A model generated the notes under the pieces. The model had not been told where the DNA came from. It did no database searches and saw only the letters and a list, made by a program, of their open reading frames with translations. From Anadara kagoshimensis (taxonomy: Eukaryota; Mollusca; Bivalvia; Arcoida; Arcidae): a stretch of DNA of 64,000 nucleotides. A program made the position numbers and the translations under genes. Within the stretch, counting starts at the first letter, position 1; each line of letters opens with the position of its first letter. The DNA lies in the NCBI GenBank assembly GCA_021292105.1, contig CM037861.1, forward strand, positions 72,839,252-72,903,251, given 5' to 3'. Below, piece after piece: positions 2,041 to 28,700 of the stretch.

Positions 2041-2166
2041 GATGGGTTAGGATTGGTCAGTAAAAGAAAAGCAGATTTAGTGTTAACTGTGTTAGATATA
2101 CAAGACACAGCACCATCCTTCTTTAATCTACCATATAGTGAAAATATGAAGGAAAATGCCTCTGTA
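2041..2166 (+). CDS. Cadherin exon 1 of window (EC linker and start of next EC)
   Basis: Preceded by a CTTGTTTTAG acceptor; 126 nt, phase 0 at both ends. It ends one EC (ADLVLTVLDIQDTAP, a degenerate calcium linker) and starts the next (PYSENMKENASV, with E of the XEX motif). The donor is GTA|GTAAGT at 2167. The last 36 nt of the exon plus the donor form the first unit of the giant array that fills the following intron. Upstream exons lie outside the window. Confidence 0.85.
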
Positions 2167-5100
2167 GTAAGTCATATATACCATATAGTGAAAATATGAA
2201 GGAAAACACCTCTGTCGTAAGTCATATATATCATATAGTGAACATATGAAGGAAAACACCTCTGTCGTAAGTCATATATATACCATACAGTGAACATATG
2301 AAGGAAAACACCTCTGTAGTAAGTCATATATACCATATAGTGAACATATGAAGGAAAACACCTCTGTAATAAGTCATATATACCATATAGTGAAAATATG
2401 AAGGAAAACCCCTCTGTAGTAAGTCATATATACCATATAGTGAACATATGAAGGAAAACACCTCTGTAGTAAGTCATATATATACCATATAGTGAAAATA
2501 TGAAGGAAAATACCTCTGTAGTAAGTCATATATACCATATAGTGAACATATGAAGGAAAACACCTCTGTAGTAAGTCATATATATCATTTAGTGAAAATA
2601 TGAAGAAAAACACCTCTGTAGTAAGTCATATATATCATTTAGTGAAGATATGAAGAAAAACACCTCTGTAGTAAGTCATATATACCATATAGTGAAAATA
2701 TGAAGGAAAACATCTCTGTAGTAAGTCATATACACCATATAGTGAAAATATGAAGGAAAATGTCTCTGTAGTAAGTCATATATACCATATAGTGAAAATA
2801 TGAAGGAAAACCCCTCTGTAGTAAGTCATATATACCATATAGTGAACATATGAAGGAAAACACCTCTGTAGTAAGTCGTATACACCATATAGTGAAAATA
2901 TGAAGGAAAACACCTCTGTAGTAAGTCATATATACCATATAGTGAACATATGAAGGAAAACATCTCTGTAGTAAGTCATATATACCATATAGTGAAAATA
3001 TGAAGGAAACCCCCTCTGTAGTAAGTCATATATACCATATAGTGAAAATATGAAGGAAAACACCTCTGTAGTAAGTCATATATATACCATATAGTGAACA
3101 TATGAAGGAAAACATCTCTGTAGTAAGTCATATATACCATATAGTGAAAATATGAAGGAAAACACCTCTGTAATAAGTCATATATACCATATAGTGAAAA
3201 TATGAAGGAAAACATCTCTGTAGTAAGTCATATATACCATATAGTGAAAATATGAAGGAAAATGCCACTGTAGTAAGTCATATATACCATATAGTGAAAA
3301 TGTGAAAGAAAACACTTCTGTAGTAAGTCATATATACCATATAGTGAACATATGAAGGAAAACACCTCTGTAGTAAGTCATATATACCATATAGTGAAAA
3401 TATGAAGGAAAACACCTCTGTAGTAAGTCATATATATACCATATAGTGAAAATATGAAGGAAAACACCTGTAGTAAGTCATATATACCATATAGTGAAAA
3501 TATGAAGGAAAACACCTCTGTAGTAAGTCATATATACCATATAGTGAAAATATGAAGGAAAACATCTCTGTAGTAAGTCATATATACCATATAGTGAAAA
3601 TATCAAGGAAAACACTTCTGTAGTAAGTCATATATACCATATTGTGAAAATATGAAGGAAAACACCTCTGTAGTAAGTCATATATACCATATAGTGAACA
3701 TATGAAGGAAAACACCTCTGTAGTAAGTCATATATACCATATAGTGAAAATATGAAGGAAAACACCTCTGTAGTAAGTCATATATACTATACAGTGAACA
3801 TATGAAGGAAAACACCTCTGTAGTAAGTCATATATATACTATATAGTGAAAATATGAAGGAAAACACCTCTGTAGTAAGTCATATATACCATATAGTGAA
3901 ATATGAAGGAAAACCACTGTAGTAAGTCATATATACCATATAGTGAAAATGTGAAGAAAACACTCTGTAGTAAGTCATATATACCATATAGTGAATATGA
4001 AGAAAACTTCTGTAGTAAGTCATATATACCATATAGTGAAAATATGAAGGAAACACCTCTGTAGTAAGTCATATATACCATATAGTGAAAATATGAAGAA
4101 AAACCTCTGTAGTAAGTCATATATACCATATAGTGAAAATATGAAGAAAATGCCACTGTAGTAAGTCATATATACCATATAGTGAAAATATGAAGGAAAA
4201 TGCCACTGTAGTAAGTCATATATACCATATAGTGAAAATATGAAGGAAAACATTCTGTAGTAAGTCATATATACCATATAGAAATATGAAGGAAAACACT
4301 CTGTAGTAAGTCATATATACCATATAGTGAAAATATGAAGGAAAACACTCTGTAGTAAGTCATATATACCATATAGTGAAAATATGAAGGAAAATCACTG
4401 TAGTAAGTCATATATACCATATAGTGAAATATGAAGGAAAACATCTGTAGTAAGTCATATATACCATATAGTGAACATATGAAGGAAAACACTTCTGTAG
4501 TAAGTCATATATACCATATAGTGAAAATATGAAGGAAAACACTTCTGTAGTAAGTCATATATATACCATATAGTGAAAATATGAAGGAAAACACTCTGTA
4601 GTAAGTCATATATACCATATAGTGAAAATATGAAGGAAAACACCTCTGTAGTAAGTCATATATACCATATAGTGAAAATATGAAGGAAAACACCTCTGTA
4701 GTAAGTCATATATACCATATAGTGAAAATATGAAGGAAAACACTCTGTAGTAAGTCATATATACCATATAGTGAAAATATGAAGGAAAACACCTCTGTAG
4801 TAAGTCATATATACCATATAGTGAAAATATGAAGGAAAACACCTCTGTAGTAAGTCATATATACCATATAGTGAAAATATGAAGGAAAACACCTCTGTAG
4901 TAAGTCATATATACCATATAGTGAAAATATGAAGGAAAACACCTCTGTAATAAGTCATATATACCATATAGTGAAAATATGAAGGAAAACATCTCTGTAG
5001 TAAGTATATATACCATATAGTGAAAATATGAAGGAAAACACCTCTGTAGTAAGTCATATATACATATAGTGAACATATGAAGGAAAAACCTCTGTAGTAA

Positions 5101-8100
5101 GTCATATATACCATATAGTGAAAATATGAAGGAAAACACCTCTGTAGTAAGTCATATATACCATATAGTGAAAATATGAAGGAAAACACCTCTGTAGTAA
5201 GTCATATATACCATATAGTGAAAATATGAAGGAAAACACCTCTGTAGTAAGTCATATATACCATATAGTGAAAATATGAAGGAAAAACCTCTGTAGTAAG
5301 TCATATATACATATAGTGAAACATATGAAGGAAAACACCTCTGTAGTAAGTCATATATACCATATAGTGAAAATATGAAGGAAAACACCTCTGTAGTAAG
5401 TCATATATACCATAGTGAAAATATGAAGGAAAACATCTCTGTAGTAAGTCATATATACCATATAGTGAAAATATGAAGGAAAAACTTCTGTAGTAAGTCA
5501 TATATACCATATAGTGAAATATGAAGGAAAACACCTCTGTAGTAAGTCATATATACCATATAGTGAAAATATGAAGGAAAACACCTCTGTAGTAAGTCAT
5601 ATATATACCATATAGTGAAAATATGAAGGAAACACCTCTGTAGTAAGTCATATATATACCATATAGTGAAAATATGAAGGAAAACACTCTGTAGTAAGTC
5701 ATATATACCATATAGTGAAAATATGAAGGAAAACATCTCTGTAGTAAGTCATATATACCATATAGTGAAAATATGAAGGAAAAACCTCTGTAGTAAGTCA
5801 TATATACCATATAGTGAAAATATGAAGGAAAACACCTCTGTAGTAAGTCATATATACCATATAGTGAAAATATGAAGGAAAACACCTCTGTAGTAAGTCA
5901 TATATACCATATAGTGAAATATGAAGGAAAACACCTCTGTAGTAAGTCATATATACCATATAGTGAAAATATGAAGGAAAACCTCTGTAGTAAGTCATAT
6001 ATACCATATAGTGAAATATGAAGGAAAATGCCTCTGTAGTAAGTCATATATACCATATAGTGAAACATATGAAGGAAAACACCTCTGTAGTAAGTCATAT
6101 ATACCATATAGTGAAAATATGAAGGAAAACACTCTGTAGTAAGTCATATATACCATATAGTGAAAATATGAAGGAAAACACCTCTGTAGTAAGTCATATA
6201 TACCATATAGTGAAAATATGAAGGAAAACACCTCTGTAGTAAGTCATATATACCATATAGTGAAAATATGAAGGAAAACACTCTGTAGTAAGTCATATAT
6301 ACCATATAGTGAAAATATGAAGGAAAACACCTCTGTAGTAAGTCATATATACCATATAGTGAAAATATGAAGGAAAACACCTCTGTAGTAAGTCATATAT
6401 ACCATATAGTGAAAATATGAAGGAAAACACCTCTGTAATAAGTCATATATACCATATAGTGAAAATATGAAGGAAAACATCTCTGTAGTAAGTCATATAT
6501 ACCATATAGTGAAAATATGAAGGAAAACACCTCTGTAGTAAGTCATATATACCATATAGTGAAAATATGAAGGAAAACACTCTGTAGTAAGTCATATATA
6601 CCATATAGTGAAAATATGAAGGAAAACACCTCTGTAGTAAGTCATATATACCATATAGTGAAAATATGAAGGAAAACATCTCTGTAGTAAGTCATATATA
6701 TACATATAGTGAAAATATGAAGGAAAACACCTCTGTAGTAAGTCATATATACCATATAGTGAAAATATGAAGGAAAACACCTGTAGTAAGTCATATATAC
6801 CATATAGTGAAAATATGAAGGAAAACACCTCTGTAGTAAGTCATATATACCATATAGTGAAAATATGAAGGAAAACACTCTGTAGTAAGTCATATATACC
6901 ATATAGTGAACATATGAAGGAAAACACCTCTGTAGTAAGTCATATATACCATATAGTGAAATATGAAGGAAAACACCTCTGTAGTAAGTCATATATACAT
7001 ATAGTGAAAATATGAAGGAAAACACCTCTGTAGTAAGTCATATATACCATATAGTGAATATGAAGGAAAACACCTCTGTAGTAAGTCATATATACCATAT
7101 AGTGAAAATATGAAGGAAAACACTCTGTAGTAAGTCATATATACCATATAGTGAAAATATGAAGGAAAACACCTCTGTAGTAAGTCATATATACCATATA
7201 GTGAAAATATGAAGGAAAAACACTCTGTAGTAAGTCATATATACCATATAGTGAAAATATGAAGGAAAACCTCTGTAGTAAGTCATATATACCATATAGT
7301 GAAAATATGAAGGAAACACCTCTGTAGTAAGTCATATATACCATATAGTGAACATATGAAGGAAAACACCTCTGTAGTAAGTCATATATACCATATAGTG
7401 AAATATGAAGGAAAACACTCTGTAGTAAGTCATATATACCATATAGTGAAATATGAAGGAAAACACTCTGTAGTAAGTCATATATCCATATAGTGAAAAT
7501 ATGAAGGAAAATGCCTCTGTAGTAAGTCATATATACCATATAGTGAACATATGAAGGAAAACACCTCTGTAGTAAGTCATATATACCATATAGTGAAAAT
7601 ATGAAGGAAAAATCTCTGTAGTAAGTCTATATATATACTATATAGTGAAAATATGAAGGAAAAACACCTCTGTAGTAAGTATATATACCATATAGTGAAA
7701 ATATGAAGGAAAAACCTCTGTAGTAAGTCATATATACCATATAGTGAAATATGAAGGAAAACACTCTGTAGTAAGTCATATATACCATATAGTGAACATA
7801 TGAAGGAAAACACCTCTGTAGTAAGTCATATATACCATATAGTGAAAATATGAAGGAAAACACCTCTGTAGTAAGTCATATATACCATATAGTGAAAATA
7901 TGAAGGAAAAATGCCTCTGTAGTAAGTCATATATACCATATAGTGAAAATATGAAGGAAAATGCCTCTGTAGTAAGTCATATATACCATATAGTGAAAAT
8001 ATGAAGGAAAATGCCTCTGTAGTAAGTCATATATACCATATAGTGAAAATATGAAGGAAAATGCCTCTGTAGTAAGTCATATATACCATATAGTGAAAAT

Positions 8101-10511
8101 ATGAAGGAAAATGCCTCTGTAGTAATCATATATACCATATAGTGAACATATGAAGGAAAACACCTCGTAGTAAGTGATATATACCATATAGTGAAAATAT
8201 GAAGGAAAATGCCTCTGTAGTAAGTCATATATACCATATAGTGAAAATATGAAGGAAAACACCTCTGTAGTAAGTCATATATACCATATAGTGAAAATAT
8301 GAAGGAAAATGCCTCTGTAGTAAGTCATATATACCTATAGTGAACATATGAAGGAAAACACTTCTGTAGTAAGTCATATATACCATATAGTGAAAATATG
8401 AAGGAAAACACCTCTGTAGTAAGTCATATATACCATATAGTGAAATATGAAGGAAAATGCCACTGTAGTAAGTCATATATACCATATAGTGAAAATGTGA
8501 AGGAAACACTTCTGTAGTAAGTCATATATACCATATAGTGAAATATGAAGGAAAATGCACTGTAGTAAGTCATATATACCATATAGTGAAAATATGAAGG
8601 AAAATGCCACTGTAGTAAGTCATATATACCATATAGTGAAAATGTGAAGGAAAATGCCACTGTAGTAAGTCATATATACCATATAGTGAAAATGTGAAGG
8701 AAACACTTCTGTAGTAAGTCATATATACCATATAGTGAAAATGTGAAGGAAAATGCCACTGTAGTAAGTCATATATACCATATAGTGAAAATGTGAAGGA
8801 AAACACTTCTGTAGTAAGTCATATATACCATATAGAGAACATATGAAGGAAAACACTTCTGTAGTAAGTCATATACCATATAGTGAAAATATGAAGGAAA
8901 ACATCTCTGTAGTAAGTCATATATAGCATATAGTGAAAATATGAAGGAAAATGCCACTGTAGTAAGTCATATATACCATATAGTGAAAATATGAAGGAAA
9001 ACACCTCTGTAGTAAGTCATATATACCATATAGTGAAAATATGAAGGAAAATGCCTCTGTAGTAAGTCATATATACCATATAGTGAAAATATGAAGAACC
9101 AGAGGCTCAGTGTGGCTGAGCCTGTCGTCACCTGACTAAATGCTTTTTAAAGCAAATTTCCATATATACTTTTCCAATAGGGTCCAATGTGAAACAACGT
9201 TCTCTGCTGGCAGCCATGTTTTATGGCAGATCAGAAAATCTTGGCAATCTATGTAAAGGACCTTCTATACATCATTCCTGTAAAGTTTGGTTGAATTTGC
9301 TTCAGTCATTTCCGAGGACATAGTCAAAAACGCGTTTTTCCCATAGGTCCAATGTTTAACTATCTTTTGCGCTGGCAGCCATGTTTTTTGGCGGATCAGA
9401 AAAATTTTGGCAATCTTAGTAAATGACCTTACATACATTATTCCTGTAAAGTTTGGTTCAATTTGCTTCACTAGCTTCAGAGGAGATAGCATATATATGC
9501 TTTTCCCATAGGGTCCAATGTTAATCTATCTTCTGTGCTGGCGGCCATGTTTTATGGCGGATCAGAAACATTTTGGCAATATATGTAAAGGACCTTCTAT
9601 ACATCATTTTTGGTAAGTTTGGTTAAATTCGCTTCAGTCATTTCTAAGGAGATAGCCAAAAATTCGTTTTTCCCATAGGGTCCAATGTTTAAACTATCTT
9701 CCGTGCTGGCGGCCATGTTTTAGGCGGATCAGAAAAATTTTGGCAATCTTTGTGAAGGACCTCAATAAATCATTCCTCTAAAGTTTGGTTAAGTTTGCTC
9801 AGTAGTTTCAGAGGAGATAGCCAAAATGTGTTTTCCCATAGGGTCCAATGTTAAACTATGTTCCCGCTGGCAGCCATGTTTTAGGCGGATCAGAAAAATT
9901 TCGGCAATCTTTGCAAAAGACCTTCCATACATCATTCCTGTAAAGTTTAATTGAATTCGCTTCAGTCGTTTCAGAGGAGATAGCCAAAAGTGCGTTTTCC
10001 CATAGGCCCAATGTTAAACTTTGTTTGGCCTGGCGGCCATTTTTTTTGGCGGATCAGAAAAATTTGGGCAATCTTAGTAAATGACCTTACATACATTATT
10101 CCTGTAAAGTTGGTTTAAATTGGCTCAGCGGTTTCAAAGAAGATAGCAAATATATGCTTTTCCCATAGGGTCCAATGTTAAACTATCTTCTGCGCTGACG
10201 GCCATGTTTTTTCGATGGATCAGAAAAATTTTGGCAATCTAAGTAAAGGACCTTCCTTACACTATTCCTGTAAAGTTTGGTTAAATTGCTTCAGTCATTT
10301 CTGAGGAAATAGTCAAAAATGCATTTTTCCATAGGGTCCAATGTTAAACTATCTTCTGCGCTGGCAGACATGTTTTTGGCGGATCAAAAAAATTTCGGCA
10401 ATCTAAGTAAAGGACCTTCCATACATCATTCCTGTAAAGTTTGGTTAAAATTGGTTCAGGGTGTTTCAGAGGAGATAGCCAAAATGCGAAATGTTTACAG
10501 ACGGACGGACT

Positions 10512-10542
<31 letters not shown>

Positions 10543-13500
10543 GGACGAGGACGCCGAGTGATGGCAAAAGCTCACATGGCCTTTAGGCCAGTGAGCTAAA
10601 AAACACCTCTGTAGTAAGTCATATATATACCATATAGTGAAAATATGAAGGAAAACACCTCTGTAGTAAGTCATATATATACCATATAGTGAAAATATGA
10701 AGGAAAACACCTCTGTAGTAAGTCATATATACCATATAGTGAACATATGAAGGAAAGCATCTCTGTAGTAAGTCATATATACCATATAGTGAAAATATGA
10801 AGGAAAACACCTCTGTAGTAAGTCATATACCATATAGTGAAAATATGAAGGAAAACACCTCTGTAGTAAGTCATATATACCATATAGTGAACATATGAAG
10901 GAAAACACCTCTGTAGTAAGTCATATATACCATATAGTGAAAATATGAAGGAAAATGCCTCTGTAGTAAGTCATATATACCATATAGTGAACATATGAAG
11001 GAAAACACTTCTGTAGTAAGTCATATATACCATATAGTGAAAATATGAAGGAAAATGCCACTGTAGTAAGTCATATATACCATATAGTGAAAATATGAAG
11101 GAAAATGCCACTGTAGTAAGTCATATATACCATATAGTGAAAATGTGAAGGAAAACACTTCTGTAGTAAGTCATATATACCATATAGTGAACATATGAAA
11201 GAAAACACTTCTATAGTAAGTCATATTACCATATAGTGAACATATGAAGGAAAAACACCTCTGTAGTAAGTCATATATATACCATATAGTGAAAATATGA
11301 AGGAAATGCCACTGTAGTAAGTCATATATACCATATAGTGAAAATATGAAGGAAAATGCCACTGTAGTAAGTCATATATACCAATAGTGAAAATATGAAG
11401 GAAAATGCCACTGTAGTAAGTCATATACCATATAGTGAAAATGTGAAGGAAAACACTTCTGTAGTAAGTCATATATACCATATAGTGAACATATGAAGGA
11501 AACACTTCTGTAGTAAGTCATATATACCATATAGTGAAAATATGAAGGAAAACACCTCTGTAGTAAGTCATATATATACCATATAGTGAAAATATGAAGG
11601 AAAACACCTCTGTAGTAAGTCATATATACCATATAGTGAAATATGAAGGAAAATGCCACTGTAGTAAGTCATATATACCATATAGTGAAAATGTGAAGGA
11701 AAACACTTCTGTAGTAAGTCATATATACCATATAGTGAACATATAAAGAAAGACTTCTGTAGTAAGTCATATATACCATTTAGTGAAAATATGAAGCAAA
11801 ACATCTCTGTAGTAAGTCATATATACCATATAGTGAAAATATGAAGGAAAATGCCACTGTAGTAAGTCATATATACCATATAGTGAAAATATGAAGGAAA
11901 ATGCCACTGTAGTAAGTCATATATACCATATAGTGAAAATGTGAAGGAAAATGCCACTGTAGTAAGTCATATATACCATATAGTGAAAATGTGAAGGAAA
12001 ACACTTCTGTAGTAAGTCATATATACCATATAGAGAACATATGAAGGAAAACACTTCTGTAGTAAGTCATATATACCATATAGTGAAAATATGAAGGAAA
12101 ACATCTCTGTAGTAAGTCATATATAGCATATAGTGAAAATATGAAGGAAAATGCCACTGTAGTAAGTCATATATACCATATAGTGAAAATATGAAGGAAA
12201 ACACCTCTGTAGTAAGTCATATATACCATATAGTGAAAATATGAAGGAAAATGCCTCTGTAGTAAGTCATATATACCATATAGTGAAAATATGAAGAACC
12301 AGAGGCTCAGTGTGGCTGAGCCTGTATCGCTCACCTGACTAAAATGCTTTTAAAGCAAATTTCTATATATACTTTTCCAATAGGGTCCAATGTGAAACAA
12401 CGTTCTCTGCTGGCAGCCATGTTTTATGGCAGATCAGAAAATCTTGGCAATCTATGTAAAGGACCTTCTATACATCATTCCTGTAAAGTTTGATTGAATT
12501 TGCTTCAGTCATTTCCGAGGACATAGTCAAAAACGCGTTTTTCCCATAGGGTCCAATGTTTAACTATCTTTTGCGCTGGCAGCCATGTTTTTTGGCGGAT
12601 CAGAAAAATTTTGGCAATCTTAGTAAATGACCTTACATACATTATTCCTGTAAAGTTTGGTTCAATTTGCTTCACTAGCTTCAGAGGAGATAGCATATAT
12701 ATGCTTTTCCCATAGGGTCCAATGTTAATCTATCTTCTGTGCTGGCGGCCAGTTTTATGGCGGATCAGAAACATTTGGCAATATATGTAAAGGACCTTCT
12801 ATACATCATTTTGGTAAGTTTGGTTAAATTCGCTTCAGTCATTTCTAAGGAGATAGCCAAAAATTCGTTTTTCCCATAGGGTCCAATGTTAAACTATCTT
12901 CCGTGCTGGCGGCCATGTTTTTAGGCGGATCAGAAAAATTTTGGCAATCTTTGTGAAGGACCAATAAATCATTCCTCTAAAGTTTGGTAAGTTTGCTTCA
13001 GTAGTTTCAGAGGAGATAGCCAAAATTGTTTTCCCATAGGGTCCAATGTTAAACTATGTCCCGCTGGCAGCATGTTTTTAGGCGGATCAGAAAAATTTCG
13101 GCAATCTTTGCAAAAGACCTTCCATACATCATTCCTGTAAAGTTTAATTGAATTCGCTTCAGTCGTTTCAGAGGAGATAGCCAAAATGTGCGTTTTCCCA
13201 TAGGGCCCAATGTTAAACTTGTTTGGCCCTGGCGGCCATTTTTTTTGGCGGATCGAAAAAATTTGGGCAATCTTAGTAAATGACCTACATACATTATTCC
13301 TGTAAAGTTTGGTTTAAATTGGCTCAGCGGTTTCAAAGAAGATAGCAAATATATGCTTTTCCCATAGGGTCCAATGTTAAACTATCTTCTGCGCTGACGG
13401 CCATGTTTTTCGATGGATCAGAAAAATTTTGGCAATCTAAGTAAAGGACCTTCCTTACACTATTCCTGTAAAGTTTGGTTAAATTTGCTTCAGTCATTTC

Positions 13501-13711
13501 TGAGGAAATAGTCAAAAATGCATTTTTCCCATAGGGTCCAATGTTAAACTATCTTCTGCGCTGGCAGACATGTTTTTTGGCGGATCAAAAAAATTTCGGC
13601 AATCTAAGTAAAGGACGTTCCATACATCATTCCTGTAAAGTTTGGTTAAAATTGGTTCAGGGGTTTCAGAGGAGATAGCCAAAATGCGAAATGTTTACAG
13701 ACGGACGGACT

Positions 13712-13742
<31 letters not shown>

Positions 13743-16700
13743 GGACGACGGACGCCGAGTGATGGCAAAAGCTCACATGGCCTTTAGGCCAGGTGAGCTA
13801 AAAACACCTCTGTAGTAAGTCATATATATATACCATATAGTGAAAATATGAAGGAAAACACCTCTGTAGTAAGTCATATATACCATATAGTGAAAATATG
13901 AAGGAAAACACCTCTGTAGTAAGTCATATATACCATATAGTGAAAATATGAAGGAAAACCCTCTGTAGTAAGTCATATATACCATATAGTGAACATATGA
14001 AGGAAAACACCTCTGTAGTAAGTCATATATACCATATAGTGAAAATATGAAGGAAAATGCCTCTGTAGTAAGTCATATATACCATATAGTGAAATATGAA
14101 GGAAAACACTTCTGTAGTAAGTCATATATACCATATAGTGAAAATATGAAGGAAAAATGCCATGTAGTAAGTCATATATACCATATAGTGAAAATATGAA
14201 GGAAAACCACTGTAGTAATCAATATACCATATAGTGAAATGTGAAGGAAAAACATTCTGTAGTAAGTCATATATACCATATAGTGAAACATATGAAAGAA
14301 AACCACCTCTGTAGTAAGTCATATATACCATATAGTGAACATATGAAGGAAAACACCTCTGTAGTAAGTCATATATACCATATAGTGAAATATGAAGGAA
14401 AATGCCACTGTAGTAAGTCATATATACCATATAGTGAAAAATATGAAGGAAAATGCCACTGTAGTAAGTCATATATACCATATAGTGAAAATATGAAGGA
14501 AAAATGCCACTGTAGTAAGTCATATATACCATATAGTGAAAATATGAAGGAAAACACTTCTGTAGTAAGTCATATTACCATATAGTGAAAATATGAAGGA
14601 AAACACTTCTGTAGTAAGTCATATATACCATATAGTGAAATATAGAAGGAAAACACTCTGTAGTAAGTCATATATACCATATAGTGAAAATATGAAGGAA
14701 AACACCTCTGTAGTAAGTCATATATACCTATAGTGAAAATATATAAGGAAAAAAACTCTGTAGTAAGTCATATATACCATATAGTGAAAATATGAAGAAG
14801 AAACATCTGTAGTAAGTCATATATATACTATATAGTGAAAATATGAAGGAAAACACCTCTGTAGTAAGTCATATATACCATATAGTGAAAATATGAAGGA
14901 AATGCCACTCTGTAGTAAGTCATATATACCATAGTAAACATATGAAGGAAAACACTCTGTAGTAAGTCATATATACCATATAGTGAAAATATGAAGGAAA
15001 AACCTCTGTAGTAAGTCATATATATACCATAGTGAACATATGAAGGAAAACATCTCTGTAGTAAGTCATATATACCATATAGTGAAAATTGAAGGAAAAC
15101 ACTTCTGTAGTAAGTCATATATACCATAATAGTGAACATATGAAGGAAAACACCTCTGTAGTAAGTCATATATACCATATAGTGAAAATATGAAGGAAAA
15201 CACCTCTGTAGTAAGTCATATATATACCATATAGTGAACATATGAAGGAAAACACCTCTGTAGTAAGTCATATAACCATATAGTGAAAATATGAAGGAAA
15301 ACACCTCTGTAGTAAGTCATATATACCATATAGTGAACATATGAAGAAAAAAACCTCTGTAGTAAGTAATATATACCATAAGTGAAAATATGAAGGAAAA
15401 CACTCTGTAGTAAGTCATATATACCATATAGTGAAAATAAGAAGGAAAACCTCTGTAGTAAGTCATATATACCATATAGTGAAAATATGAAGGAAAACAA
15501 CTCTGTAGTAAGTCATATATACCATATAGTGAAAATATGAAGGAAAACACTCTGTAGTAAGTCATATATTATACATATAGTGAAAATATAAAGGAAAACA
15601 ACTCTATAGTAAGTCATATATACCATATAGTGAAAATATGAAGGAAAACACTCTGTAGTAAGTCATATATATACTATAGTGAAAATATGAAGGAAAACAC
15701 TCTGTAGTAAGTCATATATACCATATAGTGAAAATATGAAGGAAAACCTCTGTAGTAAGTCATATATACCATAGTAAACATATGAAGGAAAACACCTCTG
15801 TAGTAAGTCATATATACCATATAGTGAAAATATGAAGGAAATACCTCTGTAGTAAGTCATATATACCATAGTGAACATATGAAGGAAAACATCTCTGTAG
15901 TAAGTCATATATACCATATAGTGAAAATATGAAGGAAAACACTTCTGTAGTAAGTCATATATACCATATAGTGAACAATGAAGGAAAACACCTCTGTAGT
16001 AAGTCATATATACCATATAGTGAAAATATGAAGGAAAACACCTCGTAGTAAGTCATATATACCATATAGTGAACATATGAAGGAAAACACCTCTGTAGTA
16101 AGTCATATATACCATATAGTGAAAATATAAAGGAAAACACCTCTGTAGTAAGTCATATATACCATATAGTGAACATATGAAGGAAACACCTCTGTAGTAA
16201 GTCATATATACCAAAGTGAAAATATGAAGGAAAACACCTCTGTAGTAAGTCATATATACCATATAGTGAAAATAAGAAGGAAAACCCTCTGTAGTAAGTC
16301 ATATATACCATATAGTGAAAATATGAAGGAAAACACCTCTGTAGTAAGTCTATATACCATAGAGTGAAAATATGAAGGAAAACACCTCTGTAGAAGTCAT
16401 ATATATACCATATAGTGAAAATATGAAGGAAAACACCTCTGTAGTAAGTCATATATACCAATAGTGAAAATATGAGGAAAAACACCTTTGTATAAAGTCA
16501 TATATACCATATGAACATATGAAGGAAAACCTCTGTAGTAAGTCATATATACCATATAGTGAACTATAGAAAAAAACACCTCTGTAGTAGTCATATATAC
16601 CATATAGTGAAAATATGAAGGAAAATGCCTCTGTAGTAAGTCATATATACATATAGTGAAAATATGAAGAAAACACCTCTGTAGTAAGTCATATATATAC

Positions 16701-19700
16701 ATATAGTGAAAATATGAAGGAAAACACCTCTAGTAAGTAATATATATACCATATAGTGAAAATATGAAGGAAAACACTCTGTAGTAAGTCATATATACCA
16801 TATAGTGAAAATATGAAGGAAAACACCTCTGTAGTAAGTCATATATACCATATAGGGAAAATATGAAGGAAAACACCTCTGTAGTAAGTCATATATACCA
16901 TATAGTGAAATATGAAGGAAAACACCTCTGTAGTAAGTCATATATACCATATAGTGAAAATATGAAGGAAAACACCTCTGTAGTAAGTCATATATACCAT
17001 ATAGTGAAATATGAAGGAAAACCTCTGTAGTAAGTCATATATACCATATAGTGAAAATAGAAGGAAAACACCTCTGTAGTAAGTCATATATACCATATAG
17101 TGGAAATATGAAGGAAAAGGCCACTGTAGTAAGTCATATATACCATATAGTGAAAATGTGAGGAAAACACTTCTGTAGTAAGTCATATATACCATATAGT
17201 GAACATATAAAGAAAGACTTTGTAGTAAGTCATATATACCATTTAGTGAAAATATGAAGGAAAACACCTCTGTAGTAAGTCATATATACCATATAGTGAA
17301 AATATGAAGCAAAACATCTCTGTAGTAAGTCATATATACCATATAGTGAAAATATGAAGAAAATGCCACTGTAGTAAGTCATATATACCATATAGTGAAA
17401 ATATGAAGGAAAATGCCACTGTAGTAAGTCATATATACCATATAGTGAAACTGTGAAGGAAAACACTTCTGTAGTAAGTCATATATACCATATAGTGAAC
17501 ATATGAAGGAAAACACTTCTGTAGTAAGTCATATATACCATATAGTGAACATATGAAGTTAAACACCTCTGTAGTAAGTCATATATATACCATATAGTGA
17601 AAATATGAAGGAAAATGCCACTGTAGTAAGTCATATATACCATATAGTGAAAATATGAAGGAAAATGCCACTGTAGTAAGTCATATATACCATATAGTGA
17701 AAATATGAAGGAAAATGCTACTGTAGTAAGTCATATATACCATATAGTGAAAATGTGAAGGAAAACACTTCTGTAGTAAGTCATATATACCATATAGTGA
17801 ACATATGAAGGAAAACACTTCTGTAGTAAGTCATATATACCATATAGTGAAAATATGAAGGAAAACACCTCTGTAGTAAGTCATATATATACCATATAGT
17901 GAAAATATGAAGGAAAACACCTCTGTAGTAAGTCATATATACCATATAGTGAAAATATGAAGGAAAACACTCTGTAGTAAGTCATATATACTATATAGTG
18001 AAAATATGAAGGAAAACACCTCTGTAGTAAGTCATATATACCATATAGTGAAAATATGAAGGAAAATGCCCTGTAGTAAGTCATATATACCATAGTGAAC
18101 ATATGAAGGAAAACACCTCTGTAGTAAGTCATATATACCATATATGAAATATGAAGGAAAACACCTCTGTAGTAAGTCATATATATACCATAGTGAACAT
18201 ATGAAGGAAAACATCTCTGTAGTAAGTCATATATACCATATAGTGAAAATGAAGGAAAACACTTCTGTAGTAAGTCATATATACCATATAGTGAAAATAT
18301 GAAGGAAAACACCTGTAGTAAGTCATATATACCATATAGTGAAAATATGAAGGAAAACATCTCTGTAGTAAGTCATATATACTATATAGTGAAAATATGA
18401 AGGAAAACCTCTGTAGTAAGTCATATATACCATATAGTGAAAATATGAAGGAAAATGCCACTGTAGTAAGTCATATATACCATAGTGAACATATGAAGGA
18501 AAACACCTCTGTAGTAAGTCATATATACCATATAGTGAAATATGAAGGAAAACACCTCTGTAGTAAGTCATATATACCATAGTGAACATATGAAGGAAAA
18601 CATCTCTGTAGTAAGTCATATATACCATATAGTGAAAATGTGAAGGAAAACACTTCTGTAGTAAGTCATATATACCATATAGTGAATATGAAGGAAACAC
18701 TTCTGTAGTAAGTCATATATATACTATATAGTGAACATATGAAGGAAACACCTCTGTAGTAAGTCATATACCATATAGTGAACATATGAAGGAAAACACC
18801 TCTGTAGTAAGTCATATATACCATATAGTGGAAATATGAAGGAAAACCCCTCTGTAGTAAGTCATATATACCATATAGTGAAAATATGAAGGAAAACCCC
18901 TCTGTAGTAAGTCATATATACCATATAGTGAAAATAAGAAGGAAAACCCCTCTGTAGTAAGTCATATATACCATATAGTGAAAATATGAGGGAAAAACCT
19001 CTGTAGTAAGTCATATATACCATATAGAGAAAATATGAAGGAAAACACCTCTGTAGTAAGTCATATATACCATATAGTGAAAATATGAAGGAAAACACCT
19101 CTGTAGTAAGTCATATATACCATATAGTGAAAATATGAAGGAAAACACCTCTGTATAAAGTCATATATACCATAGTGAACATATGAAGGAAAACACCTCT
19201 GTAGTAAGTCATATATACCATATAGTGAACATATGAAGGAAAACACCTCTGTAGTAAGTCATATATACCATATAGTGAACATATGAAGGAAAACACCTCT
19301 GTAGGAAGTCATATATACCACATAGTGAAAATATGAAGGAAAATGCCTCTGTAGTAAGTCATATATACCATATAGTGAAAATATGAAGGAAAATGCCTCT
19401 GTAGTAAGTCATATATATCATTTAGTGAAAATATGAAGGAAAACACCTCTGTAGTAAGTCATATATACCATATAGTGAAAATGTGAAGGAAAACACTTCT
19501 GTAGTAAGTCATATATACCATATAGTGAAAATGTGAAGGAAAACACTTCTGTAGTAAGTCATATATACCATATAGTGAACATATGAAGGAAAACACTTCT
19601 GTAGTAAGTCATATATACCATATAGTGAAAATATGAAGGAAAACACCTCTGTAGTAAGTCATATATACCATATAGTGAAAATATGAAGGAAAACACCTCT

Positions 19701-22700
19701 GTAGTAAGTCATATATACCATATAGTGAAAATATGAAGGAAAACACCTCTGTAGTAAGTCATATATACCATATAGTGGAAATATGAAGGAAAATGCCACT
19801 GTAGTAAGTCATATATACCATATAGTGAAAATGTGAAGGAAAACACTTCTGTAGTAAGTCATATATACCATATAGTGAACATATAAAGAAAGACTTCTGT
19901 AGTAAGTCATATATACCATTTAGTGAAAATATGAAGGAAAACACCTCTGTAGTAAGTCATATATACCATATAGTGAAAATATGAAGCAAAACACTCTGTA
20001 GTAAGTCATATATACCATATAGTGAAAATATGAAGGAAAACACTGTAGTAAGTCATATATACCATATAGTGAAATATGAAGGAAAAGCCACTGTAGTAAG
20101 TCATATATACCATATAGTGAAAATGTGAAGGAAAACACTTCTGTAGTAAGTCATATATACCATATAGTGAACATATGAAGGAAAACACTTCTGTAGTAAG
20201 TCATATATACCATATAGTGAACATATGAAGGAAAACACCTCTGTAGTAAGTATATATACCATATAGTGAAAATATGAAGGAAAACACCTCTGTAGTAAGT
20301 CATATATACCATATAGTGAAAATATGAAGGAAAACAACTCTGTAGTAAGTCATATATACCATATAGTGAAAATATGAAGGAAAACATCTCTGTAGTAAGT
20401 CATATATACTATATAGTGAAAATATGAAGGAAACACCTCTGTAGTAAGTCATATATACCATATAGTGAAAATATGAAGGAAAATGCCACTGTAGTAAGTC
20501 ATATATACCATAGTGAACATATGAAGGAAAACACCTCTGTAGTAAGTCATATATACCATAATGAAAATATGAAGGAAAACACCTCTGTAGTAAGTCATAT
20601 ATATACCATAGTGAAACATATGAAGGAAAACATCTCTGTAGTAAGTCATATATACCATATAGTGAAATGTGAAGGAAAACACTTCTGTAGTAAGTCATAT
20701 AACCATATAGTGAACATATGAAGGAAAACACCTCTGTAGTAAGTCATATATACCATATAGTGAAAATATGAAGGAAAACATCTCTGTAGTAAGTCATATA
20801 TATACTATATAGTGAAAATATGAAGGAAAACACCTCTGTAGTAAGTCATATATACCATATAGTGAAATATGAAGGAAAATGCCACTGTAGTAAGTCATAT
20901 ATACCATAGTGAACATATGAAGGAAAACACCTCTGTAGTAAGTCATATATACCATATAGTGAAAATATGAAGGAAAACACCTCTGTAGTAAGTCATATAT
21001 ATACCATAGTGAACATATGAAGGAAAACATCTCTGTAGTAAGTCATATATACCATATAGTGAAAATGTGAAGGAAAACACTTCTGTAGTAAGTCATATAT
21101 ACCATATAGTGAACATATGAAGGAAAACACTCTGTAGTAAGTCATATATATACCATAGTGAACATATGAAGGAAAACACCTCTGTAGTAAGTCATAATAC
21201 CATATAGTGAACATATGAAGGAAAACACCTCTGTAGTAAGTCATATATACCATATAGTGGAAATATGAAGGAAAACCCTCTGTAGTAAGTCATATATACC
21301 ATATAGTGAAATATGAAGGAAAACCTCTGTAGTAAGTCATATATACCATATAGTGAAAATAAGAAGGAAAACCCTCTGTAGTAAGTCATATATACCATAT
21401 AGTGAAAAATGAGGGAAAACACCTCTGTAGTAAGTCATATATACCATATAGAGAAATATGAAGGAAAACACCTCTGTAGTAAGTCATATATATACCATAT
21501 AGTGAAAATATGAAGGAAACACCTCTGTAGTAAGTCATATATACCATATAGTGAAAATATGAAGGAAAACACCTCTGTATAAAGTCATATATACCATAGT
21601 GAACATATGAAGGAAAACACCTCTGTAGTAAGTCATATTATACCATATAGTGAACATATGAAGGAAAACACCTCTGTAGTAAGTCATATATACCATATAG
21701 TGAACATATGAAGGAAAACACCTCTGTAGGAAGTCATATATACACATAGTGAAATATGAAGGAAAAATGCCTCTGTAGTAAGTCATATATACCATATAGT
21801 GAAAATATGAAGGAAAATGCCTCTGTAGTAAGTCATATATATCATTTAGTGAAATATGAAGGAAAAACCTCTGTAGTAAGTCATATATATCATATAGTGA
21901 ACATATGAAGGAAAACACCTCTGTAGTAAGTCATCATATATACTATATAGTGAACATATGAAGGAAAACACCTCTGTAGTAAGTCATATATATACTATAT
22001 AGTGAAAATATGAAGGAAAACACCTCTGTAGTAAGTCATATATATCATATAGTGAAACATATGAAGGAAAACACCTCTGTAGTAAGTCATATATATACTA
22101 TATAGTGAACATATGAAGGAAAACACCTCTGTAGTAAGTCATATATACCATATAGTGAACATATAAAGGAAAACACCTCTGTAGTAAGTCATATATATAC
22201 ATATAGTGAAAATATGAAGGAAAACATCTCTGTAGTAAGTCATATATACCATATAGTGAAAATATGAAGGAAAATGCCACTGTAGTAAGTCATATATCCA
22301 TATAGTGAAAATGTGAAGGAAAACACCTCTGTAGTAAGTCATATATACCATATAGTGAAAATATGAAGGAAAACACCTCTGTATAAGTCATATATACCAT
22401 ATAGTGAACATATAAAGGAAAACACCTCTGTAGTAAGTCATATATATCATATAGTGAACATATGAAGGAAAACCATATTTTGATGGAAACTTTTTAATTA
22501 CATGTAAATTTTTTTTTTTTGATTTTTAGGGGTTTTCAGTAATACAAGTATCAGCATTAGATGGAGATAGAGGTGTTCCAAACAGCTTAGAGTATAGTTT
22601 TATAAGAGGTATTTAAAGATTATTTTGTTACAATTCAAAAACTTGTGTGGCAGGAGACAAGTTTGATGAAACTGCTGTAAAATTATCCTAAAATTGTATC

Positions 22701-25700
22701 ACTTACTGTATAATTGTTTGTATTTACAGGGTTTTTGTCTGTATCATAGATAGGACTTCTACTGATTAAAATACAAGGGTGACTTTCATTTAACTACTTA
22801 TATAGACTTCAATCATTTTTAAATTGGAACTGGCCTCATAACTTCATTAAATGTTCATTCTTGTACCTTGCATGTACAAACATTCAGATATATATAAACT
22901 GCCAGTGTAACTACCCCAAGCTGACCTTGATGGTTGACAATATTATGTAGTGGTCATTACATAACTATTCTAATGGAAGTTCTGAGAAAAAATTATTGCA
23001 TCAGAATGAAGACAATAGTAGAGGTATTTGTTTGTCAGAAACTGATGGCTGAAGTGTAAAACTTTGTCCCCACAGATTTAAACAACTACATGTCTTATCA
23101 ATTCATTCAGTGTAATAAGGAACACAAATTAACAATTATTTTTGTAACATTCAGATGAGTTTGAGATTGTGTTCACTTCTCTTGAGAATGAAATATTTAG
23201 TAAGGTATAAACTATTGAGGACTGAGATGTTATGTAACTTTATATTTTACACAATTACTTATCCCTGATTATTTGTGTAATATATATAACCATTCATTTC
23301 TCTGTTACTGTAGGCGACTATCAGAATTTTGAACTTAACAAAACAACTGGCTGGATCACAATTAAGCATGCTCTTGACAGAGATGAGGAGAAGTCCGTAA
23401 AAGAGGTGGAGTTTACGCCATGCATGTTCAGGTGAGTAAAACATCATATCTTCCATATCTGCTCATGTAAGATAGGGATCTCACATGACCTTTAGTGACA
23501 TCACAATCAAAAGACAATAACATGACATCATCATATGAGGAACCTGACGTCATCTTGTAGGAAAATGACATCTAATTCTTTAAAATTTAGAAATTTTGAG
23601 TGTGTCTCAAATGTTAAATATTGCATTTTTGAATGAATGACGTAGTTTTGTAGTTATACATTTAGTATATGTCACCAAGCTAAATTTGTTGACATTGATT
23701 TAATTTAATTTTATTTATTTTTTCTAACTTGAAGATTGAACTCTTTTGAAATAATTTTATTTCTCTATGGTAGGTAGGTGGATTCTGGTTTATCCAAAAC
23801 CACACCTATCACAATCCTGTACCTAATGGTCTAATATCTATGTATATTCTCTATATATCTCAATTTTTACATATCCCTATATATAAGTAAACATTAATTG
23901 ACATCAGATTATCTTAATTACTTAGTGACCGTTATGGTCATGGCACAGAAATTCACCTGTCACAGCCACTAGTCTTGTAATGAGATTATCCAACTGAGAA
24001 TTATTGATTAAACTACAGGTAAAATTAAGTTAATTGAATTAATAAATGTCATAAGATAAGTATCTATAATTAAAATCCAAATGAAATAAGAATGTAATGT
24101 CAATAATTTTCCAGTGAATGAAATATTTAAACAAAATTCTTTAAAATATTAAAATTAATGTCCAAAATATATGAAAAATAAATAAATTAAATTAAATCAA
24201 TGTCAACAAATTTAGCTTGGTGACATAAACCAAAATCTGGTACAATCTTTCCAATGGCCATATTTATTTTAAAGTAGAATGTCGAATTACAAAGTTAGAT
24301 TTTACAAACATGGCGTTAATGTCTATGATAATCATACTTGATGCTATATTGGCACTAAAATGGAAGAAAAATAATCCATTATGAGTGTATCCATGTAGGA
24401 AAGGGACATCTCACCCTTGGGTTGAACATTTCTGGTCAGAGACTCGGAAAGTCTCATTTCTGACTGAAATGTTCAACCCCTAGGCAGAGATGTCTCTATC
24501 CTACATGGATACTCATAATGGATTCTTATAATCTGGTGGGTGAGTAAACTAATGCTTGGATTAATAAATTGATGATATAATTTGTAAATAGATTTATGGC
24601 ATATTAATTCGTTGAATTTATTTTCCAGTATATATGTGTGTTACCATGTTCTGTACAAACTGTATATATGTTTTAGTTAAGTATAACTTAAGTCAGTGAA
24701 TCTTGATATATCATAACATACTAGTATTTGAAACCAAATGATAATTAAATTTATAACTTGTCTTTTAAAGGCATCAGAAATCGTGAAACCAGGACAGTAT
24801 AATGTTGGGAATACCTCTGCTTCTACACTTGTCACAATCACAGTGACGGACATCAATGACAATGCACCGAGATTTCAGAAAAGTTTATATAATGCAACTA
24901 TATTTGAGAACATGCAGAGAGGTGTACCAATAACTTTTACTGGTTCTACACTAAGTCTTATGTCAGTCAGTGACATCGATCAAGTAAGTAATCAACGGAA
25001 TTGTTATAACCCCACAAACAAAGTCTGTTTGTATATCCATCTGCTTGTCTGTATGTCCATCTGTCTATTTGTCGGTTTCTGTCTGCCTGTATGTCTGTCT
25101 GTCTGTTTATACATCTGTCTGTCTATCTGCCTGTATGTCCATCTGTATGTCTGTCTGTTTATCCATCTGTATCTCTGTCGGTGTACTGGTTCTATGCTAA
25201 GTCTTATGTCAATCAGTGACATCGATCAAGTGAGAAATCAACTGGATTGTTATAACCCCTCCAAACAAAGTCTGTCTCTGTATGTCCATTTGTCTGTCTG
25301 TTTGTTCTACACTAAGTCTAATGTCTTTGTGTGACATCGATCAAGTGTGAAATCAACTGGATTGTTATAACCGCTCCAAACAAAGTCTGTCTCTGTATGT
25401 CCATTTGTCTGTCTGTTTGTTCTACACTAAGTCTAATGTCTTTGTGTGACATCGATCAAGTGTGAAATCAACTGGATTGTTATAACCGCTCCAAACAAAG
25501 TCTGTCTCTGTATGTCCATTTGTCTGTCTGTTTGTTCTATACTAAGTCTAATGTCTTTGTGTGACATTGATCAAGTGAGTAATCAACTAGATTGTTATAA
25601 CCGCTCCAAACAAAGTCTGTCTCTGTATGTCCATTGTCTGTCTGTTTGTTCTACACTAAGTCTAATGTCTTTGTGTGACATCGATCAAGTGTGAAATCAA

Positions 25701-28700
25701 CTGGATTGTTATAACCCCTCCAAACAAAGTCTGTCTCTGTATGTCCATTTGTCTGTCTGTTTGTTCTACACTAAGTCTAATGTCTTTGTGTGACATCGAT
25801 CAAGTGAGAAATCAACTGGATTGTTATAACCGCTCCAAACAAAGTCTGTCTGTGTATGTCCATTTGTCTGTCTGTTTGTTCTACACTAAGTCTAATGTCT
25901 TTGTGTGACATCGATAAAGTGTGAAATCAACTGGATTGTTATAACCGCTCCAAACAAAGTCTGTCTGTGTATGTCCATTTGTCTGTCTGTTTGTTCTACA
26001 CTAAGTCTAATGTCTTTGTGTGACATCGATCAAGTGTGAAATCAACTGGATTGTTATAACCCCTCAAAACAAAGTCTGTCTCTGTATGTCCATTTGTCTG
26101 TCTGTTTGTTCTACACTAAGTCTAATGTCTTTGTGTGACATCATCAAGTGTGAAATCAACTGGATTGTTATAACCTCCAAACAAAGTCTGTCTCTGTATG
26201 TCCATTTGTCTGTCTGTTTGTTCGACACTAAGTCTAATGTCTTTGTGTGACATCGATCAAGTGTGAAATCAACTGGATTGTTATAACCGCTCCAAACAAA
26301 GTCTGTCTCTGTATGTCCATTTGTCTGTCTGTTTGTTCTACACTAAGTCTAATGTCTTTGTGTGACATCGATCAAGTGTGAAATCAACTGGATTGTTATA
26401 CCCTCCAAACAAAGTCTGTCTCTGTATGTCCATTTGTCTGTCTGTTTGTTCTACACTAAGTCTAATGTCTTTGTGTGACATCGATCAAGTGTGAAATCAA
26501 CTGGATTGTTATAACCGCTCCAAACAAAGTCTGTCTCTGTATGTCCATTTGTCTGTCTGTTTGTTCTACACTAAGTCTAATGTCTTTGTGTGACATCGAT
26601 CAAGTGTGAAATCAACTGGATTGTTATAACCGCTCCAAACAAAGTCTGTCTCTGTATGTCCATTTGTCTGTCTGTTTGTTCTACACTAAGTCTAATGTCT
26701 TTGTGTGACATCGATCAAGTGTGAAATCAACTGGATTGTTATAACCGCTCCAAACAAAGTCTGTCTCTGTATGTCCATTTGTCTGTCTGTTTGTTCTACA
26801 CTAAGTCTAATGCTTTGTGTGACATCGATCAAGTGTGAAATCAACTGGATTGTTATAACCGCTCCAAACAAAGTCTGTCTCTGTATGTCCATTTGTCTGT
26901 CTGTTTGTTCTACACTAAGTCTAATGTCTTTGTGTGACATCGATCAAGTGTGAAATCAACTGGATTGTTATAACCCCTCCAAACAAAGTCTGTCTCTGTA
27001 TGTCCATTTGTCTGTCTGTTTGTTCTACACTAAGTCTAATGTCTTTGTGTGACATCGATCAAGTGTGAAATCAACTGGATTGTTATAACCCTCCAAACAA
27101 AGTCTGTCTCTGTATGTCCATTTGTCTGTCTGTTTGTTCTACACTAAGTCTAATGTCTTTGTTGACATCGATCAAGTGTGAAATCAACTGGATTGTTATA
27201 ACCGCTCCAAACAAAGTCTGTCTCTGTATGTCCATTTGTCTGTCTGTTTGTTCTACACTAAGTCTAATGTCTTTGTGTGACATCGATCAAGTGTGAAATC
27301 AACTGGATTGTTATAACCGCTCCAAACAAAGTCTGTCTCTGTATGTCCATTTGTCTGTCTGTTTGTTCTACACTAAGTCTAATGTCTTTGTGTGACATCG
27401 ATCAAGTGTGAAATCAACTGGATTGTTATAACCGCTCCAAACAAAGTCTGTCTCTGTATGTCCATTTGTCTGTCTGTTTGTTCTACACTAAGTCTAATGT
27501 CTTTGTGTGACATCGATCAAGTGTGAAATCAACTGGATTGTTATAACCGCTCCAAACAAAGTCTGTCTCTGTATGTCCATTTGTCTGTCTGTTTGTTCTA
27601 CACTAAGTCTAATGTCTTTGTGTGACATCGATCAAGTGTGAAATCAACTGGATTGTTATAACCGCTCCAAACAAAGTCTGTCTCTGTATGTCCATTTGTC
27701 TGTCTGTTTGTTCTACACTAAGTCTAATGTCTTTGTGTGACATCGATCAAGTGTGAAATCAACTCATTGTTATAACCGCTCCAAACAAAGTCTGTCTCTG
27801 TATGTCCATTTGTCTGTCTGTTTGTTCTACACTAAGTCTAATGTCTTTGTGTGACATCGATCAAGTGTGAAATCAACTCAATTGTTATAACCGCTCCAAA
27901 CAAAGTCTGTCTCTGTATGTCCATTTGTCTGTCTGTTTGTTCTACACTAAGTCTAATGTCTTTGTGTGACATCGATCAAGTGTGAAATCAACTCAATTGT
28001 TATAACCGCTCCAAACAAAGTCTGTCTCTGTATGTCCATTTGTCTGTCTGTTTGTTCTACACTAAGTCTAATGTCTTTGTGACATCGATCAAGTGAAATC
28101 AACTGGATTGTTATAACCGCTCCAAACAAAGTCTGTCTCTGTATGTCCATTTGTCTGTCTGTTTGTTCTACACTAAGTCTAATGTCTTTGTGTGACATCG
28201 ATCAAGTGTGAAATCAACTGGATTGTTATAACCTCCAAACAAAGTCTGTCTCTGTATGTCCATTTGTCTGTCTGTTTGTTCTACACTAAGTCTAATGTCT
28301 TTGTGTGACATCGATCAAGTAGAAATCAACTGGATTGTTATAACCCTCCAAACAAAGTCTGTCTCTGTATGTCCATTTGTCTGTCTGTTTGTTCTACACT
28401 AAGTCTAATGTCTTTGTGTGACATCGATCAAGTAACTAATCTAAACTTTTAGTGTGATCCATCTTCTTTGTAATGTTTCTGGTCGAGTGTTTTGTATTGC
28501 ATAATATTGACATCTGATGTCATTAAGACAGAGCTACTTCCTTACACTGATATACAGAAGTCACAGTAATATTGGTAAGCACAGTTCATTATGATGTCAT
28601 CACAAGGTGATATCAGTAAATTCTTAGAGTATCATGACTCAGTATTCTTATTGGTGTTAATCAATTAAATTTTTCAATGATCAGTTAAACTACTTGCAAA

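Follow-up and report, generated by a model that had tools for sequence, protein, structure and literature searches.

The window analysed here is a stretch of 64,000 nucleotides of the bivalve Anadara kagoshimensis (GenBank assembly GCA_021292105.1, contig CM037861.1, positions 72,839,252 to 72,903,251, forward strand), and it holds a cadherin gene in which the end of an exon, together with the 5′ splice site (donor) that follows it, is repeated in tandem several hundred times within the adjoining intron. Twenty-one exons of this one gene, on the plus strand, were modelled by hand between 2041 and 61116, with GT-AG borders as the rule of choice; such borders are kept in 21 of the 21 exons, which were hand-picked under that rule. 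The first of them is an open frame that lies directly after ...TTTTAG. The exons whose ends are copied in the arrays, together with E2, are:

2041 to 2166, plus strand: exon E1 (cadherin), whose last ~38 nt are the exon part of the array-1 units
22530 to 22608, plus strand: exon E2, from the hand model and Pfam
24771 to 24983, plus strand: exon E4; array 2 repeats its end and donor
30964 to 31128, plus strand: exon E6; array 3 repeats its end and donor
33969 to 34209, plus strand: exon E8; array 4 repeats its end and donor

A first-pass annotation had taken E1 for a cadherin exon, and Pfam bore this out: a Cadherin match spans E1/E2 (E 1.4e-11), and others cross E6/E7 (E 1.8e-17) and E8/E9 (E 2.1e-12), as the use of the first donor at these places would predict. 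In addition, nine Cadherin stretches were found in the 1240-aa piece E6–E21. The best solved-structure match of E6–E13 is CELSR1 (8vy2_A, E 5e-106), with cadherin-23 chains ranking lower, and that of E18–E21 is Cadherin-23 (8tri_A, E 1.5e-17), a piece for which NCBIfam returned no family. With reserve, the gene might be called cadherin-23-like.

The largest of the arrays and what remains of the intron after it are:

2129 to 22473, plus strand: array 1, a 50-bp exon-end/donor unit in 347 near-full copies, 331 of them with GTAAGT
22474 to 22529, plus strand: the non-array tail of intron 1, 56 bp with a pyrimidine tract and the acceptor

TRF reports a single 50-bp array at 2129–22473. Cyclic alignment divides it into 354 pieces, of which 347 cover at least 40 of the 50 columns; the seven pieces with fewer than 40 columns were excluded from the unit statistics. 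The number of near-full units is close to the figure of about 350 first put forward, and GTAAGT is intact in 331 of them and GT retained in 336. The consensus consists of the last 38 nt of E1 and 12 intronic nt and corresponds, with its phase shifted, to the unit of 36 plus 14 nt originally described. The end of E1 together with the beginning of the following intron constitutes the first unit, which departs from the consensus only in having TG for CA. When the unit was aligned with the donor junction of E1 it scored 127, while the best of 20 shuffled units scored 24 across all junctions, and chance is therefore excluded as the source of this match. E1 is the source of the array-1 unit, since the exon end belongs to the cadherin domain that Pfam finds to span E1/E2.

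Intron 1 measures 20,363 bp (2167–22529), of which 17.3 kb (17,338 bp, ~85%) are units, 3,007 bp are two islands of other sequence, and 56 bp are the tail. The length of about 20 kb given by the first-pass annotation thus stands, whereas its statement that nearly all of the intron is the unit does not, because the islands and the tail remain. As the donor start and the tail together come to only ~70 bp, intron 1 may have been tiny before amplification. Beyond the first donor, the first in-frame stop is the TGA at 2197, in the 11th codon, within the 11 codons that had been predicted; every later array-1 donor sits past it. In array 1, the reading frame is preserved by the first donor only, and the earlier claim that a full protein is obtained solely through this donor holds for array 1 to that extent. 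The two units directly after the true donor (2179–2380) are the only two of the 347 with a C right before GTAAGT, and unit 5 reads ATAAGT. These changes could represent a weakening of the nearest competitors, or chance.

Array 1 is accompanied by three further donor arrays in the same gene:

25189 to 28433, plus strand: array 2, a 115-bp unit with the E4 end and a decayed donor, mostly GTGTGA
31085 to 32816, plus strand: array 3, a 49-bp unit with the E6 end and donor, 31 ACTGTAAGT
34163 to 34795, plus strand: array 4, a 73-bp unit carrying the E8 end together with its donor (GTATGT, in 7 of 9 units)

Arrays 1, 3, and 4 start within their exon. In array 3 (38 pieces, 35 near-full), 31 of 35 CACTAA-anchored sites read CTGTAAGTA. 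In array 4, GTATGT is found in 7 of the 9 units, and the donor of unit 2 is broken. Array 2 comprises 36 pieces (29 near-full), 22 of which read TCAA followed at the exon border by GTGTGA, GT being mostly retained; its exon copy (24943–25054) lies ~130 bp away from the main array. A TGTC-rich stretch is found at 24943–25230, between this exon copy and the next unit. Reading past the first donor, a stop codon is met at codon 11 for E1, codon 4 for E6, codon 28 for E8, and codon 117 for E4. The donor of the second array-2 unit, at 25230, is 246 nt downstream and ahead of the first in-frame stop (25332). In this respect, and so far as the sequence alone predicts, the rule of a single workable donor, the first, does not extend to E4.

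These frames bear on the idea that the inner donors are deliberate poison sites, through which part of the transcripts is lost to nonsense-mediated decay. Any later donor of array 1 would indeed bring in the stop at 2197, and a natural example exists in the variable number tandem repeat (VNTR) of human ABCA7 intron 18, in which the retention of one unit, through use of the second donor, breaks the frame. However, this one-unit isoform amounts to only ~2% of transcripts (PMC5954066). Moreover, the second donor of array 2 keeps the frame, and the donor of unit 2 in array 4 is broken. We consider poison sites extremely improbable.

The relation between arrays and splice sites was examined by comparing 20 array consensuses with 21 donor and 21 acceptor junctions, each taken as 45 exonic and 30 intronic nt; the array of the second island (a copy of the first), units shorter than 15 bp, and tandem rows shorter than ~150 bp were excluded. 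Four of the 20 consensuses match the donor junction of the exon immediately upstream, with scores of 127 (array 1/E1), 88 (array 2/E4), 143 (array 3/E6), and 120 (array 4/E8) against shuffled maxima of 22–28 (20 shuffles each). The other 16 tested arrays contain no exon donor, and at the acceptor junctions none of the 20 consensuses exceeds its own shuffled maximum. In a simulation in which 19 arrays (islands excluded), as one unit each, were placed at random on the collapsed 19.7-kb sequence, 0.68–0.95 donor arrays were expected, and at least four were obtained with P 0.004–0.011, depending on the overlap required; at least four arrays at any junction were obtained with P 0.040–0.112. With array 1 left out, since the locus was noticed because of it, at least three donor arrays of 18 have P 0.023–0.054. 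The lack of acceptor arrays is by itself unremarkable (P 0.37–0.49), and, with donors and acceptors taken as equivalent, all four junction arrays would fall at donors with P 0.06. The enrichment of arrays at donors in this one gene is therefore suggestive. Finally, AG at positions −2 and −1 is present in none of the four array donors as opposed to 11 of the 17 other donors (P 0.035, post hoc).

The islands, which lie inside array 1 and are not the source of its unit, are:

9097 to 10599, no strand assigned: island 1 in array 1, transposon-like, with 8 repeats of 166 bp and a GACT microsatellite
12297 to 13800, no strand assigned: island 2 in array 1, 97.6% identical to island 1

They are 1,503 and 1,504 bp long, start 3.2 kb apart, and have, by eye, inverted-looking ends; the pair was perhaps doubled together with a stretch of the array. 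In architecture, which is the only basis for the likeness, both islands resemble the bivalve Pearl/HINE elements, with ~160-bp central repeats and a 4-nt microsatellite; Pearl/HINE features also include subterminal inverted repeats, and up to six central repeats are given for Pearl, as compared with ~8 in the islands (PMC7492417). A further transposon-like element, with 7.6 repeats of 145 bp and a GTGC microsatellite, occupies ~40844–43861 in intron 11 and ends, by eye, in AGCTCACCTG and CAGGTGAGC. Altogether, 19 minisatellite arrays fill ~45 of the 64 kb of the window, and their units differ between introns. Upstream of E1, another 50-bp array (1–1631) continues beyond the window edge; its unit has no match among the junctions tested.

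An important question is whether an array of 20 kb can be trusted. One explanation is that its length is largely an artefact of assembly, a short real donor array having been inflated and many of its small indels being errors. The islands differ from one another by 5 substitutions as against 31 gap events, homopolymers accounting for 23 of the latter, and homopolymer lengths are off in 72 of 672 places in array 1 (4 sites) as against 5 of 416 elsewhere (16 sites). Within 500 bp of an edge or an island, array 1 has its lowest indel density (0.41 per unit, compared with 0.75–0.99); this trend with distance is weak (circular-shift P 0.098), however, and a polishing gradient was rejected as proof of assembly error. 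Contrary to what simple inflation would give, substitutions distinguish units along the whole array, and three more clean arrays of like make occur in the same gene. Inflation of this extent is thus decidedly unlikely; many of the small indels of array 1 may be unreliable, as perhaps may the precise number of its copies, while the existence of array 1 and of the three related arrays is not in doubt.

Another possibility is that this copy of the gene is no longer fully used, as a pseudogene or a damaged allele, in which case arrays could grow freely because the splicing load would be irrelevant. The frame is in fact broken twice, once in E3 or at its end (23314–23431, in the E3/E4 border region) and once within E5 (29708–29870), and the exon model includes manual resets of the frame at E4, E5, and E6. 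By eye, both breaks look like one-base homopolymer changes, which are frequent mistakes of assembly; either assembly error or true damage may account for them. The remaining modelled exons are open, the GT-AG borders persist in all 21, and Pfam finds the nine Cadherin stretches in E6–E21, which makes this explanation unlikely.

The splice signals within the unit were scored with a donor matrix built from 17 other donors. The array-1 unit donor reaches 6.4 bits, a value that falls among those of the modelled donors (2.8–11.6 for all 21), while the best acceptor in the unit has −3.8 bits, under all 21 modelled acceptors (1.4–16.5). Since the unit is donor-only, units would be unable to begin exons or to splice among themselves, and micro-exons or recursive units were rejected on the strength of this acceptor score. 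A masking of the inner donors by RNA structure was likewise dismissed: the 390 nt from the exon on show no better folding than shuffled sequence (z 1.09, with 86 of 100 shuffles at least as good). No Rfam family matched at the gathering score.

It was also proposed that the array could act as a sink for U1 or slow the polymerase, and this received no positive support. In its fuller form, the proposal is that the array is a working device kept by selection, its U1 sites blocking premature polyadenylation (telescripting), holding U1, or slowing the polymerase. The 17,338 bp of units contain 335 GTAAGT and no AATAAA or ATTAAA, as opposed to ~1.0 GTAAGT and ~1.4 AATAAA/ATTAAA per kb in the other 19 introns; both counts would suit telescripting but also follow from the repetition of one 50-mer. 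Selection for donors is not supported, for when the 45 hexamers of the unit are ranked by how few substitutions they have, GTAAGT comes only 7th, behind six that overlap or follow it, and no conservation specific to donors was seen among the array-1 units. Substitutions per column are 1.25 in the 12 intron-derived columns and 12.05 in the 38 exon-derived ones, a difference not read as selection because a few polymorphic exon-derived columns drive the mean. The changes in the GT bases are a few variants that recur in several units and were not used as evidence. Furthermore, GTAAGT is mostly lost in array 2, where GTGTGA prevails, and most of the arrays tested in the gene, 16 of 20, lack an exon donor. 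A selected device is, in consequence, quite unlikely.

The arrays are probably tolerated passengers, which arose from tandem duplications straddling a donor and expanded without selection for that donor. Short tandem duplications that took in the end of an exon and the adjoining 5′ splice site would have occurred at least four times in the gene and then expanded via unequal exchange or segmental duplication. For array 1, stretches in which units match those 49, 33, or 30 units away (an uncontrolled comparison), together with the doubled island, suggest growth by segmental duplication. Added units would lie downstream of the exon's own donor and be removed as intron provided that splicing starts from the first donor. 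This donor would be favoured in being transcribed first and in being paired, across the 126 nt of E1, with the acceptor at 2040 (exon definition); U1 bound to it and tethered to RNA polymerase II may stay there while the intron is made. Such retention of an upstream 5′ splice site by U1 tethered to RNA polymerase II during intron synthesis is described in PMC8316553. A unit that has a donor and lacks a good acceptor could not start an exon of its own, whereas a duplication that spanned an acceptor would do more harm, and the lack of any such array may be due to this. The array would be kept uniform by concerted evolution, as a passenger and not as a selected device. Donor choice by exon definition or by early co-transcriptional commitment is the most plausible basis for this. 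What we infer from these data is that the first donor is used, that the arrays are neutral, how they were amplified, and why donors and acceptors differ.

Several observations weigh against the passenger explanation. The same source (PMC8316553) allows several 5′ splice sites to be attached at once and denies that splicing follows a plain first-come, first-served order; for this reason, first-donor choice is treated here as inferred. The last GTAAGT of array 1, at 22433, is 97 nt from the acceptor end, a distance that suits intron definition and would then lead to the wrong donor. At the E4/E5 junction, next to array 2, no Pfam family gave a match crossing it, and the second donor of array 2 would add 82 in-frame codons with the frame unbroken. 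Acceptor-like sites in the islands score up to 9.5 bits, from which pseudo-exons are possible. The mean distance between array-1 units is almost independent of lag (2.12 at lag 1 and 2.72 at lag 300). The excess of donor arrays over random placement is unexplained by neutrality alone. In ABCA7 (PMC5954066), skipping of the next exon increases and expression decreases with array length.

The locus is of interest for the choice of 5′ splice sites, since ~330 equal donors in a 20-kb intron, with the needed donor at the 5′ end, constitute a natural test: exon definition and early tethering to RNA polymerase II predict the use of the first unit, intron definition that of the last. A broader proposal, possible and yet rather doubtful, is that donor-junction satellites are recurrent in the lineage, in several genes, and at 5′ rather than 3′ splice sites. 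Polar splice choice, with the first donor winning, would allow arrays to arise or survive at donors. In a stricter, post hoc form of this proposal, only donors without AG at −2 and −1 would be amplifiable, because AG/GT units would be dual-specific and splice among themselves. If the proposal is true, donor-junction loci are natural experiments that separate exon definition and tethering to RNA polymerase II from intron definition, and if the bias towards donors and away from acceptors holds genome-wide, the polarity of splicing shapes where satellites grow inside genes.

How does this system compare with known ones? An intron bred by the array itself, with dual-specific splice sites, does not fit array 1, whose unit has an acceptor of −3.8 bits and whose functional acceptor is outside the array. 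Introns derived from tandem arrays, with the acceptor within the repeat, were reportedly described by Zhuo et al. in 2007. The dual-specific repeats of UBC and VCX3A (PMC10809524) are, as here, tandem repeats with splice signals inside a gene; there, however, the repeat supplies both donor and acceptor, and the intron length is a multiple of the unit. The array-1 unit does not supply an acceptor, that of E2 lying 56 bp beyond the array. The satellites in the gigantic introns of Drosophila kl-3 and kl-5 are not known to be copies of an exon/donor junction. These introns, reportedly of megabase size, are likewise inflated by tandem repeats and must still be spliced (PMC6508621). No exon-end/donor satellite in a mollusc is present among the literature matches listed, and the array-1 unit has no exact match in viral and prokaryote contig collections, a result that is hence uninformative.

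The closest parallel is the ABCA7 intron-18 VNTR, and with it the suggestion of the first-pass annotation that a satellite defined by an exon/donor junction is an unfamiliar class is not supported. This human array (PMC5954066) adjoins exon 18 and has a 25-bp C-rich unit that starts with the donor GT; it thus already includes the exon-18 donor and ranges from 12 to ~427 units, the largest allele among 452 typed people measuring 10,678 bp. As in ABCA7, array 1 adjoins an exon, and its units repeat the donor of that exon. By analogy, the inner donors may be used little, and the chief cost may come from skipping E2, an exon of 79 nt whose loss breaks the frame. Unlike the ABCA7 unit, the present one includes the exon end and has the donor GTAAGT, array 1 reaches 20 kb in the assembly, and four such arrays exist in one gene. 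What is new relative to ABCA7 is therefore the exon sequence in the unit, a length beyond 10,678 bp, and the four arrays per gene; a type of array described in a disease context is thereby extended to an invertebrate, with more than one of them in a single gene.

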